Below the pieces are notes generated by a model. That model saw only the letters and a program-made list of their open reading frames with translations. It was not told where the DNA came from and searched no databases. This document shows positions 8,219-16,559 of a stretch of 44,498 nt of DNA, one piece after another (position 1 is the first letter of the stretch; every line of letters begins with the position of its first letter). Origin of the DNA: an uncultured Lachnospiraceae bacterium (GTDB lineage: Bacteria; Bacillota; Clostridia; Lachnospirales; Lachnospiraceae); the NCBI GenBank assembly GCA_949502235.1, contig CATBDC010000032.1, forward strand, positions 1 through 44,498, written 5' to 3'. A program made the translations under genes and the position numbers.

Positions 8219-8232
8219 TTTACTTGAAAAAA

Positions 8233-9141
8233 ATGAATTTTTCACAATTACAATCATTTATTACCGTTGTACAACTTCACAGCTTCTCGAAAGCAGCAGA
8301 GCGGCTTCATTTTTCACAGTCGACTATCACTTCACACATTAATGAATTAGAAAAAGAATTAGGCCAGCAGCTACTGGTCAGAAGTACCCGAAATTTTCAG
8401 CTTACAAAGGCTGGAATTCGCTGTTACAGCTTTGCCGTTGCGGTTGTATCCCGCAAAAATGCTTTGCTTTGTGAGTTTAATAAAAATTCTCAAATACCTA
8501 AAATTCTGCGCATTGTAGCATCATCACTGCCTTTACATTCATACCTGCCAAAAGTATTAACAGAATATAACTCCATTCATCCTAACATATTTTTAAAAAT
8601 CGTCCCCAGCGACAGCTATACGATTGCAGAGAGTATGAAAGAACACCAGGTTCACATTGCATTTTGCGGATACGAAACAAAAAACAAAAATTATATCTAT
8701 TCTCCTATTGCAAAAGATCAGTTGGTTGTTATAACTCCTGACAATGCACAATATCAAACTCTGGAGCAAAAAAACCCATTTCCGGAAGAACTTCTCCTTT
8801 CACAGCCAATGATATGCCGTGCACCAATATCTGGGACACGCCTTGAATTCGAAAAATATTTAACTGACCGGGGAATCTATACGAAGCCAAATGTTATTTG
8901 CGAAATGCCTGATGCATTTTCCATTATTAATTCTGTAAGTGAAGGACTTGGAATAGCAGTGTTATCATCCTTTGAAGTCCGGCAGATTACTGAAAAAAAG
9001 AAATTGCTCTGCTTTTCACTGGAAAATTTACCTTGTCGTTCCTTATATATTGTCAAACAAAAACATGACAAGCTTTTATCTTATGAACGGGAATTTTACG
9101 ATTATGTTTTAGAACAGGCAAAATATCCTGATAAAAAATAG
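8233..9141 (+). CDS. LysR family transcriptional regulator
   Basis: The product is 302 residues from the ATG. The winged HTH is clear (MNFSQLQSFITVVQ, SFSKAAERLHFSQSTITSHI, LEKELGQQLLVRS), followed by a periplasmic-binding-like effector domain. A TTG three codons earlier (8224) is the alternative start; neither has a good ribosome site. It lies 127 bases upstream of, and in the same direction as, the ABC importer and nitrogenase-like genes, which it probably controls. The effector could be the imported compound. Overall style recalls CysL-like regulators, but no specific ortholog is claimed. Confidence 0.88.
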   Translation: MNFSQLQSFITVVQLHSFSKAAERLHFSQSTITSHINELEKELGQQLLVRSTRNFQLTKAGIRCYSFAVAVVSRKNALLCEFNKNSQIPKILRIVASSLPLHSYLPKVLTEYNSIHPNIFLKIVPSDSYTIAESMKEHQVHIAFCGYETKNKNYIYSPIAKDQLVVITPDNAQYQTLEQKNPFPEELLLSQPMICRAPISGTRLEFEKYLTDRGIYTKPNVICEMPDAFSIINSVSEGLGIAVLSSFEVRQITEKKKLLCFSLENLPCRSLYIVKQKHDKLLSYEREFYDYVLEQAKYPDKK

Positions 9142-9197
9142 GATTTTTCCATTAATCCGTCCATTTATCGAAAAAGAAATGATATCCTCCTGTTTCG

Positions 9198-9226
9198 TTG
9201 ACCATGCTTATCTTTTATGTTAGGTT
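9198..9226 (+). promoter_or_regulatory. possible promoter of the importer/nitrogenase-like operon
   Basis: TTGACC (9198-9203) is 17 bases from TAGGTT (9221-9226), which has an extended TG one base upstream. The -10 is poor, as would suit a promoter needing an activator such as the adjacent LysR protein. The start codon is at 9269. Confidence 0.35.
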
Positions 9227-9268
9227 AAAAAGAAGCCTAGGTACAATAAGAAAAGGAGAATCTATACA

Positions 9269-10138
9269 ATGAAAACAAAGTCTATTTTGATTTCCGGTTT
9301 ACTAATCTTTACACTTTTACTGTCAGCCTGCGGCTCAAAAGAGAAAGCTTCAGAAAATGATAAAAAGGACACAGAAAGCACTGCAGAAAATGCAGGAGAT
9401 ACTGCACAGGATGCTTCCGAAGAAACGATTACTTTAAAAATCGGTACCCATGGCAGCTTTAGTCCATATGCATTTATAGATGAAAACTCAGATGCACCCC
9501 AGGGCTACGAAATAGACCTTATGAATGAAATAGCAAAAAGAAAAAATTTAGATGTTACCTTAGAGGTCGCCGAATGGAACGGTGTGTTTGGAATGCTGGA
9601 CGCCGGCCAGTTAGATACCATTGCCTGCGTAGTAAGCCCTACGGAAGAACGCAAAGAAAAATATGATTTTTCGGAGCCTTATATAAAAATGGATATTGGA
9701 ATCGGCGTACAAAAAGGGCAGGCCTCTTCCATTACAAAATTAGAAGATCTGGCTGGAAAGAAAATCGGTGTAAATGCAGGCGGACAGGCTATGAAAAAAC
9801 TGGAATCTCTTCAGGATACTGTTCAGTTTGAAATTGTTGCCTACGACAGTCCTACCAGTATGGAATATGATTTGTCCCTCGGAAGACTAGATGGTATTTA
9901 TGAGTCAATTGTTGCTATTCTGCAGGCGGCAGATCGTGGTGACTGCGATATTGAACCGGCAGAAATGGAGCCTCTTGTTACATCATTATGTGCTTATCCG
10001 TTTGTTAAAGATAATGAACGTAACAAAGAGGTCATTGAAAGAATTAATGAGGCGCTGGCTGAAATGCGTGAGGATGGTACACTTATGGAGCTTTCAATGA
10101 AATGGTTTAATATTGATCAAGTAACCATTGATGAATAG
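9269..10138 (+). CDS. ABC importer solute-binding lipoprotein, polar amino-acid type (SBP_bac_3)
   Basis: This 289-residue lipoprotein has a signal peptide ending in the lipobox LLSAC (C21) and a charged linker rich in E, K and D. The family-3 binding domain follows (FSPYAFIDEN ... GYEIDLMNEIAKRKNL ... SPTEERKEKYDFSEPYI). The arginine that usually grips the alpha-carboxylate is present (R128). The aspartate that usually grips the alpha-amino group appears replaced by S213 in GRLDGIYES, with E212 beside it. The ligand is therefore probably a carboxylated, amino-acid-like molecule but not a standard alpha-amino acid. AAAGGAG precedes the ATG. It is the first gene of the importer operon. Confidence 0.9.
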   Translation: MKTKSILISGLLIFTLLLSACGSKEKASENDKKDTESTAENAGDTAQDASEETITLKIGTHGSFSPYAFIDENSDAPQGYEIDLMNEIAKRKNLDVTLEVAEWNGVFGMLDAGQLDTIACVVSPTEERKEKYDFSEPYIKMDIGIGVQKGQASSITKLEDLAGKKIGVNAGGQAMKKLESLQDTVQFEIVAYDSPTSMEYDLSLGRLDGIYESIVAILQAADRGDCDIEPAEMEPLVTSLCAYPFVKDNERNKEVIERINEALAEMREDGTLMELSMKWFNIDQVTIDE

Positions 10139-10153
10139 AGATAAGCGGTTCGG

Positions 10154-10188
10154 AAGATGACTCCACCCTGAAGGATGCGAGTCATCTT
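10154..10188 (+). terminator. intercistronic hairpin after the solute-binding protein gene
   Basis: A perfect 10-base stem (AAGATGACTC at 10154-10163, GAGTCATCTT at 10179-10188) lies 15 bases after the stop. It is followed by AATTTATATA rather than a long T-run. This is typical of a partial terminator or 3' stabiliser that keeps binding-protein mRNA in excess over the downstream permease genes. Confidence 0.55.
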
Positions 10189-10268
10189 AATTTATATACC
10201 ATCGGGCATTCCATAACACATTCCCTTCGTGGGGGGACTTTCTAATAAGGTATGAGGAGAAAAATGAA

Positions 10269-11108
10269 ATGTACGCTGATTTATTAAGACAGCTCGAGTT
10301 GTCTCTGCATCTGAATAAAAAACCGGTCGGGATACATTTTTTCTTAATTCCAGAAGAGTATGACGATGCTGCCGTCCCTTCTTCAGACAGTAAAATGAGT
10401 ATTTGTTCCTATATTAATCAGGCGGCCGAAAAAAAAATCCGCCGAAAGGTCAGCTGGGAGCATGTAAGCTGCACTGGGGGATTATCTGCATTAGGACTAA
10501 AAAAGCCGGGGAATTTTGTAAAATCTGGAAAACAGTTTTTTCTGATGAGGCTGTATGAAAGTATGGCGGTGGCCAGAAAGGTAATCTCTCAGCTTGGTTT
10601 TATGGAAATGCAGATCTATGGCTTTGAAATCGGTCCGTTAGAACAGCTTAACAGTGCGGATGTTGTAATCATACTTGGGAATGCATGGCAGATGATGCGT
10701 ATGGTCCAGGGATATACCTTTCACTATGGGGTGCCGGAAAACCTGGGAACAGCAGGCAATCAAGGGGTATGTGCTGATCTGGCGGCAAGGCCCTTCCAGA
10801 AAAATGATTTTAATTTTTCCATGCTTTGTCCAGGCGCCAGAATCCATATGAAATCATCTGAAAACGAAATGGGGTGCGGAATGCCCATACACCAGTTTAA
10901 GACAATTGCAGCCTCTGTCGTAGCCACTACATCCCTGGCCATGACCAGACAGGAAAAGCTGGAATTACTTAAGAGAATGAATTCTCCCTCGGATTTAGAC
11001 TGCAAAATAGAGCTGGATAAAATGTACGGTACCTATCATAAAAATTCTCCTTATCCCCATGAATTATATGACAGACAGGAAAAAGTAACAGAAAGGGACT
11101 TTCTATGA
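10269..11108 (+). CDS. DUF169 family protein, cysteine-rich
   Basis: The 279-residue cytosolic protein matches DUF169: an N-terminal LELSLHLNKKPVGIHFF segment, EHVSCTGGLSALGL, DVVIILGNAWQMMRMVQGYTFHYG, and GVCADLAARPF ... LCPGARI ... MGCGMP. Family function is unknown. Six cysteines stand out: C46, C68, C168, C187, C203 and one in SDLDCKIEL. Several are in conserved-looking positions and could hold a metal or Fe-S cluster. GAGGAG stands 9 bases before the ATG. The stop overlaps the permease start (ATGA, 11105-11108), tying it to the importer. It sits between binding protein and permease, so a role in handling the substrate is inferred. Confidence 0.85.
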   Translation: MYADLLRQLELSLHLNKKPVGIHFFLIPEEYDDAAVPSSDSKMSICSYINQAAEKKIRRKVSWEHVSCTGGLSALGLKKPGNFVKSGKQFFLMRLYESMAVARKVISQLGFMEMQIYGFEIGPLEQLNSADVVIILGNAWQMMRMVQGYTFHYGVPENLGTAGNQGVCADLAARPFQKNDFNFSMLCPGARIHMKSSENEMGCGMPIHQFKTIAASVVATTSLAMTRQEKLELLKRMNSPSDLDCKIELDKMYGTYHKNSPYPHELYDRQEKVTERDFL

Positions 11109-11806
11109 GATTTGATTTCAGATATGTTATAAAAGTATTCCCCAATATTTTAAGCTATTTGCCTGTAACACTCGGAATTGCTTTCTTGTCAGGAGCTATT
11201 GCCATGCTGTTATCAGTTGCGCTCCTGGCGCTTCGGAAAATACACTGTCGGGCGCTGCAGGCCGCCCTTAATTTTTATTTGGATTTTTTCCGGGGAACTC
11301 CTGTAGTAGTCCAGCTTTTTTTCCTGTATTACGGTCTGGCACAGCTTTTTCCCGTGTTTAAAAATCTAAACGGTCTTACTGCTGCAATCATCGGCCTGAG
11401 CCTGAATGCCTCCTCCTATATGTCTGAAAGTATGCGCGGAGCCGTCCAATCTGTTCATCCAAGGCAGGTAGAAGCAGGGCTGGCCTGCGGGCTTACACAG
11501 ACGCAGGTCATGTGGCATATTGTTTTTCCACAGGCGGCAAGGATAGCTGTTCCAACTCTTACCAACGATTTTATCGGACTTATAAAAAGCTCGGCCGTAG
11601 CTTTCGTACTGGGCGTCCGGGACGTAATGGCCCAGACGAAAATGCTTGGCGGAAGCTCCTATCGTTTTTTTGAGTGTTACTTCGTGGCAATTATTATATA
11701 TTTTATTTTAACAAAGCTTATCCATACATTCCAGTTATGGCTTGAAAAGAAATTAGATGTAAGAACAAGAAACGGAGGAAAAAAATGCTCCAGATCAGTC
11801 AGTTGA
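11105..11806 (+). CDS. ABC importer permease, polar amino-acid type
   Basis: This is a 233-residue inner-membrane permease of the HisM/GlnP type. It has about five membrane segments, the family phrase [21 protein letters not shown] and the EAA loop [22 protein letters not shown]. It is translationally coupled to DUF169 upstream, and its end overlaps the ATPase gene by 22 bases. A single permease gene implies a homodimeric channel. Confidence 0.92.
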
Positions 11807-12531
11807 AAAAATCCTTTGACTCGCTGCAGGTGTTAAACGGTATTGACCTGCATGTAAAAAAAGGAGAGGTCGTCTCTGTTATCGGCCCCTCCGGAACAGG
11901 AAAATCCACCCTTTTACGCTGTATCAATTATTTAGAGCAGCCCACATCCGGAAGCATTACGATAGACGGACTGTGTATATCTCCTGAAACAAAATCCAGG
12001 AAAAGGCTCTATGAAATACGCAGAAAAAGTTCCATGATCTTTCAGGACCACTCTCTTTTTGAGAATAAGACTGTATTAGAGAATATTACCCTGCCACTGA
12101 TTTCTGCATACGGATATTCAAAATCCGACGCAGAAGTAAAGGCTATGGATATCTTACAGGCAATTGGACTTGCAGACAAATATAATCAATACCCCTACGC
12201 TCTCTCGGGCGGACAGCAGCAGCGGGCAGGTATCGGCCGGGCGCTCGCCATTGAGCCAAAAGTGATGCTGTTTGACGAGCCCACCTCCGCTCTGGACCCT
12301 TCCCTTATTAACGAGGTTCTTGAACTTATCCGTTCACTGGCTGAAAAACATATGACAATGCTGATTGTCACTCATGAAATGAGCTTCGCCCGTCATGTCT
12401 CCGACCGCGTTATCTTTATGAATCATGGCATCATTCTGGAAGAAGGAACGCCGGACCAGATTTTTACAAGTCCCAGATGCCATGAAACCAAATCTTTTAT
12501 TAAAAGTACAATACAAAGAGTGAATTTTTAA
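11785..12531 (+). CDS. ABC importer ATP-binding protein, polar amino-acid type
   Basis: The 248-residue ATPase powers the importer. Walker A is GPSGTGKST, the Q-loop is FQDHSLF, the signature is [15 protein letters not shown], Walker B is [13 protein letters not shown], and the H-loop is IVTHEM. It resembles GlnQ/TcyC-type subunits. A GGAGG site precedes the ATG inside the permease end. It is followed after 64 bases, with no terminator, by the NifH-like gene. Confidence 0.95.
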
Positions 12532-12595
12532 AATCTACTATAACAGGCAGTTTACAATGTAGGATGGAATCAAACATACAGAATTGGAGAAAACA

Positions 12596-13333
12596 ATGAA
12601 ACGATATGCAATATATGGAAAGGGCGGTATAGGAAAATCCACAATAACATGCGCTCTTTCCGCAGCCCTTGCACGGAAGGGCTTTACGGTGCTTCAAATT
12701 GGATGCGATCCAAAGGCAGATTCAACCGCCTCGCTGCTTGGCGGACAGTCTCTTATTCCTATTACAGAATATCTCCGTCAGCATGACGAGACACCCTCCC
12801 TTAGAGACATTATTGTTCAGGGATACGGCGGCGTATATTGTGCTGAATCCGGCGGTCCCACTCCGGGAATCGGCTGCGCCGGCAGAGGAATATTAATGGC
12901 CTTTCATTTGCTGGATGAGCTGGAGGCAATCGAAAAAATTCAGCCGGATTATGTATTATATGATGTTCTGGGAGATGTTGTATGCGGCGGCTTTGCCGCC
13001 CCAATCCGCGACAGCTATGCGGATGAAGTAATAATAGTTACATCTGGTGAAAAAATGTCCTTATTTGCCGCAGGTAATATTTTTCAGGCTGTGGAAAATT
13101 TTAAAGATCAAAATTACGCTCAGGTACGCGGAGTAATTCTTAATAAAAGGAATGTCCCCGGCGAGGAAAATCTTGTTCAGGAATTTCTGGATACCACCGG
13201 GCTTCCCCTGCTGGGGGTCATTCCAAGAGATAATGCAATTCCCTTTTACGAAAATAAAAATCAAACGGTAATAGAAGGAGATGCCGGACTTCCTATATCA
13301 CAAAAAATAATAAGCATTGCGGAAAAACTATGA
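12596..13333 (+). CDS. NifH-like nitrogenase-superfamily iron protein (ATP-dependent reductase)
   Basis: This 245-residue protein should form a homodimer that binds one [4Fe-4S] cluster and passes electrons, with ATP hydrolysis, to the component 1 partner. It shows the deviant P-loop GKGGIGKS (8-15), the switch segment GCDPKADST, cluster cysteine C94 in PGIGCAGRG, and cluster cysteine C130 in [16 protein letters not shown]. The arginine corresponding to the nitrogenase ADP-ribosylation site (GRG) is kept. It is shorter than nitrogenase NifH and seems to lack the C-terminal tail. The start at 12596 follows GGAG by six bases; the TTG at 12584 would contain that site. It overlaps the next gene by ATGA. 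Confidence 0.92.
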
Positions 13334-14694
13334 AAAATTACTATACTCTTACTATCACACAGGCTGAAGAACTGCTGTTAAAAAAGCAGCCTATTCCTGG
13401 AAATTTATATGAAAATGTTGAACGAAAGGTTCTGTTATATCCCCACGACGGAGACGGAGGCGCCATTCCTACAACAACTCCCCTTTGTATTCCCCATCTG
13501 GTTTCTCTGATGATTTCTCCAATGGGATGCGGAATACATCTTACAGAGACTGGAAGAGGGTGTATACACAATGCGGGAAGGGCATGGCTTTTACGTCTGA
13601 CGGAAAAGGAAATTGTCCTTGGCATGCAGGAAAAACGGATAACACAGGCTGTAAAAGAAATTCTGGAAAATTCGTCTGTAGGCATTGACAGCATATTATT
13701 ATGCGCCACCTGTATGGACGCGTTATTATCCACGAATCTTTCTGCAATCGCCGGACATATAGAACAGCTTTACCATATCAGAACCGAAGCCGAATTCATG
13801 GGGCCTTTTTTGAATACTTCGCCAAAACAGGCTGAATTCCGGATGATGTCTGCTGTTTACAGGCTGCTTCGGCCTCTGAAAAACTGTGAGAAGGCTCAGA
13901 CGGTTAACATAATAGGTAGTTTAGACAAACCGGCATGCATTACCGAACTATACCATTTACTTCATCCTCTTGGAATTGAAAAAATATTTTGTATAAGTGA
14001 TTTTCCCTCCATAAAAGACGCGGATATCATGACCCGGTCGAAAGCAAACATCGTATTAAGTAAAAGCGCGTTAAAAGCCGCGCGGCAGATGGAAAAGAGA
14101 TGGAATATTCCCGGAATCTATATGGCTCCCTCCTGTGATATAGAGCTTATTGCCTCGAATTACAACCGTTTATCTCAGGTATTGGAAAAAGAAGTTGATG
14201 ACAATCGTTTACAGGAAGATGTACGCCGTCAAATAAAATGGATACGCCCTTACTTAAAAAAATATCGTTGCGCAGTAGGCGGAAAAAATAATATCCCCTG
14301 CTTTACGGCTGCATGCAGCTTAATAAAGCTGGGCTGTGACGTCCGAATTATCTTTGCCCATAACATTACACAGGATGATTTAAAAGAAATCACATGGCTG
14401 AAAAATAGAAATCCAAATATAAAAATATACTTCGACAGCCATCCGTCTATGTATGATTACAAAGCGGCGGCCAATGAATTTAATCTGTCTTTTGGCGTAC
14501 CGGATCCCTTCCTTTACCGCACGGAAGGAATCCTTGACGCGCCTCTGCTTGATTTCTCCGGTACTTATTCGGATGTGTTAAGCTTTTTAGAAAGCCTTAA
14601 AGATGCAGTCAGCAGACCCGCCGGCACAGACGGCAAAATATTTCCTGCATATAAAAAATGCTGGCATTCTCTTATAAACGAAGGAGGAAAATGA
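13330..14694 (+). CDS. NifD-like nitrogenase-superfamily component 1 subunit
   Basis: The 454-residue protein is a component 1 oxidoreductase subunit. Reading it against NifD by eye, C53 (PLCIPH), C67 ([13 protein letters not shown]) and C128 (ATCMDALL) fall where the three P-cluster cysteines are. [19 protein letters not shown] matches the NifD EKDIVFGG helix. The NifD FeMo-cofactor ligands appear lost: Cys275 aligns with S244 ([19 protein letters not shown]) and His442 with S414 (FSGTYSDV). It is therefore not a dinitrogen reductase. It overlaps the NifH-like gene (ATGA at 13330) and the NifK-like gene. Its specific substrate is unknown. Confidence 0.85.
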
Positions 14695-14696
14695 CA

Positions 14697-15875
14697 ATGA
14701 AAGGACTGTACCGCAGCTTTCCGGCATTTGCGCCGGACTACACGGGTGTATCTTCATTTCTCTTTGCTGAAAATGCATTAACTATATTCCTGGACCCCCA
14801 TGGCTGTAACGGACAGTCATTATACTATATGGATCCCCGGTTTGAAGACTTTGGAAAAATGCCTAAAAGCTTTTCCTGTGGAATCCGGGAAAAAGACGCC
14901 GTTTTCGGCCTGGACACTCTCGTAGAAAAGAAAACTGTAAAACTGCTTGAGTATGTAAGCGGCGATTATATTGTATTACTTGGCACCCCTGTTCCCGCGA
15001 TGCTTGGCGTAGATTTTAAAGCTCTTTCTGAAAAAATCCAGCGTCTCACAAATATTCCCGCTTTTGGAATACCCACTACAGGACTTTGCTTTTATGATGA
15101 CGGACAGAAGCTGCTTTTAAACTGCATTTTAGACTGGGCGGAATCTACAGGAAATAATTTTGAGTCTGAAAGAGCCGATGTACATATCATTGGAGCAACG
15201 CCTCTGGACGGATGGGATTATACATCAATCAATGATTATCTCTCCCTTCTGAGAGACTGCGGCATCACAAATATATCCTGTTGGGGACAGGGAGGCCTCC
15301 TGCAAAAGGCCAAAGGAGTAAAGAATTCCAAACTAAATATTGCCGTTTCGGCCCCCGGGCTGTATATTGCCCAGAGACTGGAACAGTCATATGGCACCCC
15401 ATACATCATAGGGTTTCCAATTGGAACGCAGATGGAGACATATTATAAAAGCTTAATAAAAACAAAAATAAATGCGCAGACTCCTCCTTCTAATCCGGAA
15501 AGCGCCTATGTAAACAAGGATATCGGCCGCGTTCTGATTCTGGGAGATCCCATAAACAGCTGCATGCTCCGCAGCTGCCTTCAGCTGCAGTTTGGCATAC
15601 CAAAGGTGGATATTGGCTTCTGCTTTTTCCCTCCTTCCATCTGTATGCAGACAGATGATTTTATTTTTACAGAAGAATATGAACTGAATCAGGCGGTATC
15701 CAAAAGACCGGCATATGATTTTGTAATTGGGGATCCTTTATTTCAGAGCTCCATTTCAGGTAAGAAATATATAGATTACCCTAATATTGCTGTTTCAGGG
15801 CGGCTTTATGCACGGGAAATGGAGCGTACTTTCGGAAAATGGGGAGACGTTTTTATTGAAAAGCATATCCTATAG
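14697..15875 (+). CDS. NifK-like nitrogenase-superfamily component 1 partner subunit
   Basis: The product is 392 residues from ATG 14697, which stands 9 bases after AAGGAGG. ATG 14691, overlapping the upstream stop, is the alternative. C37 (DPHGCNGQ) and C61 (KSFSCGIREKDAVFG) are 24 residues apart and match NifK P-cluster C70 and C95. The third NifK cysteine position reads GTPVPAML, with proline P98 instead. With the NifD-like partner this makes five of six P-cluster cysteines. It lies at the end of the operon and converges with the DUF4230 gene, with no hairpin terminator visible in the 6-base gap. Confidence 0.82.
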   Translation: MKGLYRSFPAFAPDYTGVSSFLFAENALTIFLDPHGCNGQSLYYMDPRFEDFGKMPKSFSCGIREKDAVFGLDTLVEKKTVKLLEYVSGDYIVLLGTPVPAMLGVDFKALSEKIQRLTNIPAFGIPTTGLCFYDDGQKLLLNCILDWAESTGNNFESERADVHIIGATPLDGWDYTSINDYLSLLRDCGITNISCWGQGGLLQKAKGVKNSKLNIAVSAPGLYIAQRLEQSYGTPYIIGFPIGTQMETYYKSLIKTKINAQTPPSNPESAYVNKDIGRVLILGDPINSCMLRSCLQLQFGIPKVDIGFCFFPPSICMQTDDFIFTEEYELNQAVSKRPAYDFVIGDPLFQSSISGKKYIDYPNIAVSGRLYAREMERTFGKWGDVFIEKHIL

Positions 15876-15881
15876 GCAGAA

Positions 15882-16559
15882 TTACGGGGCTGGCGGACTA
15901 TCTGTCAAAGTATACCTTATCTCCACTCCCTCCCCATACACAGCCTGGAAATGTGATATCAGCAGATACTTAATAGTCTCATCTGACTTCTTTAAAATAT
16001 CGCTTTTTAATATTTTCGTCTCCTCCTGCTTCGCGGCCTCTATCAGGAGGCCGTTATAATCCTCCGGCCTTACGGGATTAAAGATATTGTTTTTTTCATC
16101 AAAAATTTCCAGGGATTCTTGAATCGTGTAGTTGTCTAATATCCGGGAATGGGGAACAAATAGATTTACCGCTGTCACCCTTCCATCGGAATCTGCATTT
16201 TCTATGAATTTTACATCATCCCCATTAATTCCAATATTTATTCTTCCATCTATCGTTGCGACAAAATTATTTTCCGTTAAGGGGATGTCTACTCCCATAA
16301 AGCTGTTTCTGTCCGAATACTTCAGTACGGATGTATAGGTAAATTCATACGCCGCATATCTTGAAATCTGCTTTATTTCTTCTTTCACTGCATCTGTCTC
16401 AATCTTCTTTCGTTCAAGCTCTGCCAGTTTATCTTCCAGCTCTTTCATTTCCTCTTGCCTTCGGCTTCTGTCTCTTACTAACGAAATGCAGAAAAACAGC
16501 ATTCCGGTAAAAATGATCCCCGTCACAATCCAAAAGAAGCTTATACGAAATTTTTTCAT
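15882..16559 (-). CDS. DUF4230 domain membrane-anchored protein
   Basis: The 225-residue protein has one N-terminal membrane segment (about residues 8-28) and a charged coiled-coil stretch (about 30-65). A DUF4230-type domain follows (AYEFTYTSVLKYSD, GVDIPLTENNFVATIDGRINIGI). The family function is unknown, and most of the protein should face outside the membrane. It is convergent with the nitrogenase-like operon. A terminator for the upstream YitT gene separates the two minus-strand genes. Confidence 0.75.
   Translation of the reverse strand: MKKFRISFFWIVTGIIFTGMLFFCISLVRDRSRRQEEMKELEDKLAELERKKIETDAVKEEIKQISRYAAYEFTYTSVLKYSDRNSFMGVDIPLTENNFVATIDGRINIGINGDDVKFIENADSDGRVTAVNLFVPHSRILDNYTIQESLEIFDEKNNIFNPVRPEDYNGLLIEAAKQEETKILKSDILKKSDETIKYLLISHFQAVYGEGVEIRYTLTDSPPAP

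Follow-up and report, generated by a model that had tools for sequence, protein, structure and literature searches.

The DNA analysed here, called the window throughout, is a stretch of 44,498 nucleotides (nt) from an uncultured Lachnospiraceae bacterium (contig CATBDC010000032.1 of assembly GCA_949502235.1), and our subject is a set of eight contiguous open reading frames on its plus strand at 8233 to 15875. They encode a LysR-type regulator, a binding lipoprotein, a DUF169 protein, a permease and an ATPase, followed by three proteins resembling the nitrogenase components NifH, NifD and NifK, referred to as H, D and K, or HDK when taken together. An earlier reading of the window, the original prediction, had described a same-strand set of these eight genes; the reading frames bear it out, as do the Pfam domains of all eight proteins, which score over their cut-offs. 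Our analyses place D and K among nitrogenase-like enzymes (NFLs) of Bacillota, outside the Nif and methylthio-alkane reductase (Mar)-type sequences compared, and suggest tentatively that the operon imports an organosulfur amino-acid-like compound and cleaves it reductively.

The regulator gene (8233..9141; HTH_1 and LysR_substrate domains) and the gene for the solute-binding lipoprotein (9269..10138; SBP_bac_3, 113.5 bits) lead the set. The genes for the DUF169 protein (10269..11108; PF02596, 163.7 bits against a cut-off of 27), the permease (11105..11806; BPD_transp_1, 79 bits) and the importer ATPase (11785..12531; ABC_tran, 119 bits) follow, and then come those for H, a putative ATP-dependent electron donor (12596..13333; Fer4_NifH, 270 bits), D (13330..14694; Oxidored_nitro, 99 bits) and K (14691..15875; Oxidored_nitro, 54 bits). 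For the regulator and H, comparison with the copy of the operon in Dorea sp. 5-2 favors ATG starts at 8233 and 12596, respectively. Most of the genes are tightly coupled: overlaps join DUF169 to the permease gene (11105-11108), the permease to the ATPase gene (22 nt, 11785-11806) and H to D (13330-13333), all as originally described, and the junction of D and K, which had been taken for a near-overlap, is a true 4-nt ATGA overlap at 14691-14694. The ATPase and H genes are 64 nt apart. A wider spacing of 130 nt separates the binding-protein gene from DUF169 and contains, as read by eye, a plus-strand hairpin with a 10-bp stem and a 15-nt loop (10154..10188), perhaps a read-through or mRNA-stability element; again by eye, the same stem can form in the Dorea copy with two G-U pairs, and a sequence stretch upstream of the binding-protein gene is also common to both. 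The Pfam scan found no radical S-adenosylmethionine (SAM) domain among the eight proteins.

Affiliation and predicted cluster type of HDK

H is a clear NifH-family protein, and D and K are divergent Oxidored_nitro proteins. Every curated cut-off in the comparison lies above their scores. H reaches 278.9 bits with the nifH model (cut-off, 394.35), 277.3 bits with CfbC (402), 191.4 bits with BchL (345.15) and 185.8 bits with BchX (331.2). The best model for D is nifE (66.9 bits; cut-off, 505.1), and D scores 30.4 bits with BchB (490.35) and 24.2 and 21.4 bits with two BchN models (324 and 419.95), while K has 31.5 bits with nifD (653.55). Neither D nor K drew a CfbD match at E≤0.01, the presence of such a model in the library being unchecked, and MarD is not among the PDB matches to D at E≤1. 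The window had been said to carry no NifB or NifE/N, and this holds across the host assembly (95.66% complete), where the window D/K pair is the only match to PF00148 and the best match to NifB scores 37.7 bits against a cut-off of 343.65.

A profile search with D found matches in 52 of 397 genomes of the family (E≤1e-8) and 17 of 398 of the phylum (E≤1e-12), host included; both genome sets are samples of larger groups. Besides the window's own D at 1030 bits the best match has 160 bits with nothing in between, suggesting that the window and Dorea proteins form a branch of their own. A FastTree phylogeny of 150 D and K rows places window D together with all but one of the 57 D rows (56; support, 99) and window K, likewise, with all but one of the 58 K rows (57; support, 100). 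This superclade is separate from the references of Nif and Mar type, with which MarD (9fmg) is placed; D and K of one long-branched locus, L122, lie outside both sets. An IQ-TREE phylogeny of 43 D rows, built from 12 references (11 plus MarD) and a chosen 30 of the 57 D rows, likewise unites all references, MarD 9fmg included, at 100/100 and leaves window D outside; the join of the window/Dorea pair has a support of only 56/27 and carries a long-branch warning. The references in both trees are of Nif and Mar type, with no CfbD, Bch or Isr rows. FastTree used 15 of the 30 reference loci, one row of which, R_L031_2877_4103, is a wrongly included non-nitrogenase frame with a branch of 3.2. The D, K and H rows in alignments and trees were filtered by length (D, 380 to 520 amino acids; K, 320 to 480; H, 200 to 330), excluding fused D-K frames and cut genes.

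Hence, the phylogenetic check proposed with the original prediction puts HDK outside the Nif and Mar-type clades, which are the reference clades covered. A clean separation from the dark-operative protochlorophyllide oxidoreductase (DPOR) is less evident: a profile of the superclade K proteins matches BchB (2xdq_B) at E 4.8e-21, worse than NifE (E 1.4e-28) and better than MarD (E 1.1e-15), which counts against it. The literature searched, which did not extend to subscription journals, contains in the portions available no description of a nitrogenase-like enzyme with DUF169 or of NFL clusters linked to Hyp or Hyd genes; one paper (PMC9431491) has all three terms of one such search, in separate contexts in the text seen. 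As judged from the sequences, D and K sit in a Bacillota NFL superclade whose function is not described in that literature and which is separate from the Nif and Mar-type sequences compared. The expectation of an importer-linked NFL without a described function is thereby upheld, as far as those references and the curated cut-offs reach.

The conserved residues fit a simple metal-cluster content. Leaving out L122, C67 and C128 of D are invariant in 57 of 57 superclade rows, as are C39 and D16 of K in 58 of 58, and the P-loop, C94 and C130 of H are identical in all 68 aligned H proteins. C67 and C128 of D align with Cys88 and Cys154 of NifD. Aligned window D has no Cys at the position of NifD Cys275 (Cys270 of Mar) and no His at that of NifD His442 (His429 of Mar). 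Together, the four invariant D and K residues, the missing cofactor ligands and the lack of NifB point to a [4Fe-4S]-type reductase, and a DK component with only a [4Fe-4S]-type cluster would fit them. We had also considered K D16 as the counterpart of the BchB Asp in DPOR and dropped it: the frame of the 3aet_B match (profile position 31 to chain position 28), taken with the residue number of that Asp, would put it nearer K C39. K D16 is thus perhaps a candidate fourth cluster ligand only.

Importer, DUF169 protein and regulator

The importer genes encode an ATP-binding cassette (ABC) system of the polar amino acid transport (PAAT) type, the 3.A.1.3-type class. The binding protein scores 113.5 bits with PF00497 (cut-off, 26.4), the permease 73.6 bits with TIGR01726 (HEQRo_perm_3TM; cut-off, 42.2) and the ATPase 119.2 bits with PF00005 (cut-off, 25). 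Among NCBIfam models the best for all three are of cystine type, with 138 of 312 bits required for the binding protein, 151 of 300 for the permease and 281 of 406 for the ATPase (TcyN). These scores are well under the cut-offs, so that "polar-amino-acid type" is the right level of naming. Loss of the amino-group-binding acid in the window binding protein was considered and dropped, since an acidic residue lies one position off and the alignment is ambiguous.

The original prediction treated DUF169 as a special partner of the reductase, a view that the other DUF169 loci do not support. Across 98 searched relatives DUF169 occurs at eight places in five genomes, the window's included. All seven other loci adjoin uptake genes, of PAAT type (L137, L140), MetNIQ type (L141, L142), Opp type (L139) and ECF type (L136, L138), classes assigned partly by reading, and the stretches around them contain no match to H, D or K. 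Its presence beside varied importers without HDK suggests that DUF169 is an importer partner in general rather than a reductase-specific subunit. Four cysteines (C46, C68, C168 and C187) are invariant in all eight aligned sequences, the window and Dorea copies included and the L136 copy left out, and the protein may bind an Fe-S cluster or a metal. It has no match among solved structures at E≤1, and structure predictions from two-sequence alignments reached a mean pLDDT (predicted local distance difference test score) of 34 both for DUF169 and for D.

The regulator scores 249 bits with the model of a selenium-associated LysR protein (NF040786; equivalog cut-off, 250), and a second LysR of the host, adjoining selA and selB, matches it at 140 bits; the window LysR may have a direct selenium role. 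That second locus (L143, contig C38 of the host genome G000) holds a selD match with one in-frame TGA, selA, selB, the LysR gene, a cysteine-desulfurase-like gene and a YedE-like gene, all names except selD being assigned by reading.

Conservation, mobility and genomic partners

The one scan for close relatives of D that covered named genomes gave a single locus, in Dorea sp. 5-2 (L007). It has the same eight genes in the same order with 75 to 92% identity per gene (82% for LysR, 86 to 89% for the binding lipoprotein), so that in this locus, the only orthologous one found, HDK is again accompanied by the importer, as the original prediction expected. Its flanks differ from those of the window, with a formate/nitrite-family channel gene 142 nt after K. 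Within the host genus D is found in one genome of six, the window's own, and no further orthologue was found beyond the host's own genome among the six genus, 397 family and 398 phylum genomes. A congener, G397, has homologues of the right-flank genes in order and 79 to 95% identical (the gene at 15882-16559, then YitT, trigger factor, cardiolipin synthase and three others); none of the eight genes occurs in the 18 kb of G397 that were read, and D is absent from its genome. In another member of the genus, G399, the place next to YitT is taken by a different PAAT-DUF169 importer without HDK, 32 to 55% identical to that of the window, and G306, G398 and G400 have other genes there (window 8224-15875 compared with L140 and L150-L153). 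The site beside YitT and trigger factor is variable. The presence of the eight genes at another site in Dorea and their absence from G397 suggest that the unit probably moves horizontally as a block.

To these loci we compared the wider superclade in stretches of no more than about 20 kb, some of them truncated where a contig stops: 57 loci, of which 40 come from the 52 family genomes and 16 from the phylum search, plus L007; two family matches better than 1e-8 and weaker ones were left out of this reading. At least two of HypF, HypD and HypE lie in 30 of the 57, and FecCD with a Fec binding protein or ATPase in 20 (L094, L096-L100, L103-L108, L110, L111 and L118-L123); no locus has both. HydE or HydF occurs in 12 of the stretches and a TM1266-like protein in 22, some of the Fec-linked loci among them (TM1266-like, HydE or HydF genes in L103, L104 and L123). 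Neither the Hyp pair nor the Fec set was found in the remaining seven, L007, L069, L071, L073, L075, L088 and L109; L073 and L075 have HypF only within the stretch, and sugar-type ABC genes, named by reading only, lie near L088 and L109. PAAT genes are present in two loci (L007 and L069) and DUF169 in one (L007).

Two of these relatives bear on the substrate. At L069 (456-8397, genome G262) one same-strand run holds a PAAT importer, an M20 amidohydrolase (249.5 bits; cut-off, 153.75), NFL D and K, a PatB-family C-S lyase (403 bits; cut-off, 340) and NFL H, and its D is, besides the Dorea copy, the nearest row by tree path to window D. At L071 (2902-12499, genome G191) NFL K, D and H share a same-strand run with genes for an ABC importer of BMP type, a PfkB kinase and a protein resembling PsuG (Indigoidine_A). 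These partner counts suggest that importer linkage is frequent in the superclade and that the delivered cargo differs.

The Hyp-linked relatives deserve mention in their own right. HDK genes stand beside HypF-HypD-HypE at L068, L070-L087, L089-L093, L095, L101, L102, L112-L117 and L154 (L071, inside this range, was counted without a Hyp pair in the 57-locus tally), in many cases accompanied by another HDK set and a TM1266-like protein and in some by HydE or HydF. For a survey of maturation genes 80 genomes were chosen: 32 of Hyp type (those of the 30 counted loci plus L073 and L075, where HypF lies in a locus that is cut or incomplete in some other way), 20 of Fec type, five others, one of them the host, and 23 in which no superclade match reached E≤1e-8. 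HydE is over its cut-off in 64 of the 80 and HydG in 25. All 32 Hyp-type genomes have HydE and none has HydG over the cut-off of 312 bits, their lower radical SAM matches reaching up to 204 bits, compared to 25 with HydG among the 32 other HydE-positive genomes (Fisher p 1.7e-11, uncorrected for kinship). Among the seven exceptions, which have HydE and lack HydG, four carry a Fec-type NFL (G048, G117, G734 and G453), G191 also carries a complete Hyp-type set (L154), G312 has H and a long D frame (L088), and G011 (86% complete) shows no NFL match. The absence of HydG from all HydE-positive Hyp-type genomes suggests that HypDEF and an NFL may replace HydG in H-cluster assembly, a suggestion drawn from the distribution of HydE and HydG. 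Missing hydG in acetogens is discussed in PMC9431212, where "nitrogenase" appears, in the text available, only in a reference title. This observation is possibly larger than the main finding.

Proposed function and comparison with known systems

We propose a LysR-controlled, horizontally moved import-and-reduce operon. By homology, the PAAT-type importer would bring in an amino-acid-like, probably carboxylated compound, which DUF169 may receive, sense or prepare. As its family and conserved residues suggest, H, with one [4Fe-4S] cluster and ATP, would hand low-potential electrons to DK, which would hold a [4Fe-4S]-type cluster on D C67, D C128, K C39 and perhaps K D16, with neither the iron-molybdenum cofactor (FeMo-co) nor a Mar-type [Fe8S9C] cluster. 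The last step, the least certain, would be a reductive cleavage, most likely of the C-S bond of an organosulfur amino-acid derivative, whose sulfur would then be assimilated. We hold this reading, in which an imported amino-acid-like organosulfur compound is cleaved reductively and probably at a C-S bond, with a confidence somewhat short of even. It leans on the sulfur enzymes of L069, its main support at one locus, and finds further support in the importer, whose best matches, below cut-off, are cystine models, and in the precedent of C-S bond cleavage by NFLs, established for Isr and Mar in the parts of the two papers available (PMC11423573 and PMC12552129). The sulfur chemistry suggested in the original prediction is thus no more than plausible, from one distant relative. 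More doubtful is the broader claim that the operon represents a new NFL functional class: a transferable, [4Fe-4S]-only two-component C-S reductase accompanied by a PAAT importer of its own and by a DUF169 protein with four cysteines, one branch of a superclade with member-specific delivery systems.

Several observations weigh against this proposal. The window operon has no sulfur enzyme itself, and the sulfur argument comes mainly from L069, whose D and K are about 24 to 31% identical to those of the window. Most relatives are tied to HypFDE (30 of 57) or FecBCD (20 of 57), and L071 to nucleoside-type genes, rather than to sulfur genes. The acid with which PAAT binding proteins hold the amino group lies, in the window protein, at a shifted position or is replaced by another residue, in an alignment ambiguous at this point. 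DUF169 accompanies many importers and so says nothing about the reductase, and orthologous eight-gene loci number two, the window and L007.

Among the alternatives, the importer and HDK might reduce a sulfur-free amino-acid-like compound, for example at a C=C, N-O or C-N bond, as a nitrogen or carbon source. DPOR reduces a C=C bond, and amino acids are the usual cargo of PAAT importers. A [4Fe-4S]-type DK without a complex cofactor is the DPOR arrangement, according to the part of PMC11423573 available, and L071, with its BMP-type importer, PfkB kinase and PsuG-like protein, also speaks for such a substrate. The C-S lyase in L069, the sole PAAT-linked relative outside the orthologues, speaks against it, and we regard this alternative as rather unlikely. 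Unlikely, too, is an HDK that acts on a metal centre or cofactor fragment, with the PAAT system supplying a precursor or chelate. The many Hyp, Fec, Hyd and TM1266-like partners listed above (HypF/D/E in 30, FecBCD-type importers in 20, HydE or HydF in 12 and the TM1266-like protein in 22 of 57) would suit this role, against which stand the host's own HydG and HydE, an operon without any Hyp, Hyd or Fec gene, and the position of window D and K on a deep branch of their own.

It is highly unlikely that importer-DUF169 and HDK are chance neighbors of independent function. The 64-nt gap falls exactly between ATPase and H, and in G399 the same YitT gene has a PAAT-DUF169 importer next to it and no HDK; that importer, however, is the divergent one with 32 to 55% identity, a PAAT importer adjoins HDK in L069 too, superclade HDK genes commonly have importer genes as neighbors, and the eight genes stand in order at an unrelated Dorea site, on which evidence we rejected chance association. 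The most improbable reading is that the operon encodes an ordinary nitrogenase, MarHDK or IsrHDK that happens to lie in an unusual setting: the three-subunit architecture is alike and the NifH-model score reaches 279 bits, yet Nif and Mar membership is rejected on the missed cut-offs, the trees, the missing cofactor ligands and the lack of NifB, MarD is not among the PDB matches to D at E≤1, and the operon has no radical SAM gene and a Cys pattern unlike that described for Isr in the available text.

Few NFLs have a known job, and each of these opened a pathway (chlorophyll, F430, methylthio-alkane and isethionate use). This operon brings an importer along with the enzyme, and knowing what a single small lipoprotein binds could identify the substrate for a branch common in Bacillota.

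The yxe/ytm-type operons of Bacillus subtilis take up and break down S-substituted cysteine with a PAAT importer and an M20 amidohydrolase, as in L069. An O2-dependent monooxygenase does the cleavage there, whereas we propose a reductive enzyme, and the window operon has no amidohydrolase. The superclade loci (L068-L123) share the D and K clades and the four invariant residues with the window; they have no PAAT importer except for L069 and no DUF169 (0 of 56), and, among the rows compared outside L007, their D and K are about 17 to 32% identical to those of the window.

CfbCD resembles the proposed enzyme in its ATP-driven H component and its DK-type component with simple [4Fe-4S] clusters. 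We know of no dedicated amino-acid-type importer for either CfbCD or DPOR, both biosynthetic enzymes, and window H and D score far below the Bch and CfbC cut-offs. DPOR (BchLNB) has the same arrangement of H, DK-type component and simple clusters in the account available (PMC11423573), which gives its cluster ligands as three Cys of BchN and one Asp of BchB, as opposed to two Cys of D, one Cys of K and possibly an Asp of K here. Mar is an NFL as well, and the C-S cleavage proposed here would be the same kind of chemistry. MarDK holds its P- and [Fe8S9C]-clusters via Cys270 and His429, as far as the text seen describes them (PMC12552129); window D has no equivalents and lies in another clade. 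Mar-like (group IV-A) genes are placed in or near mlp methyltransferase clusters by a preprint seen in part (PMC10418091); in the text available, neither it nor the Mar paper mentions DUF169.

The original prediction held that none of the NFLs it named outside N2 fixation is known to come with its own polar amino-acid-type importer. As a general statement on importers this is contradicted by IsrBHDK, the isethionate reductase of Rhodobacter capsulatus, which relies on an importer, SsuCAB, encoded within its own 26-kb locus (PMC11423573, as are the statements on Isr that follow, all from the part of that paper available). Isr differs in its need for the radical SAM protein IsrB, which has no counterpart in the window operon, in the type of its importer (SsuCAB versus PAAT), and in having one conserved Cys in D and three in K compared to two in D and one in K in the window superclade; DUF169 is not mentioned in the text seen. 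Like the system proposed here, Isr is a three-subunit NFL tied to an ABC importer of its own locus, its substrate is a small organosulfur compound, and it is proposed, from its Cys pattern, to work without FeMo-co.

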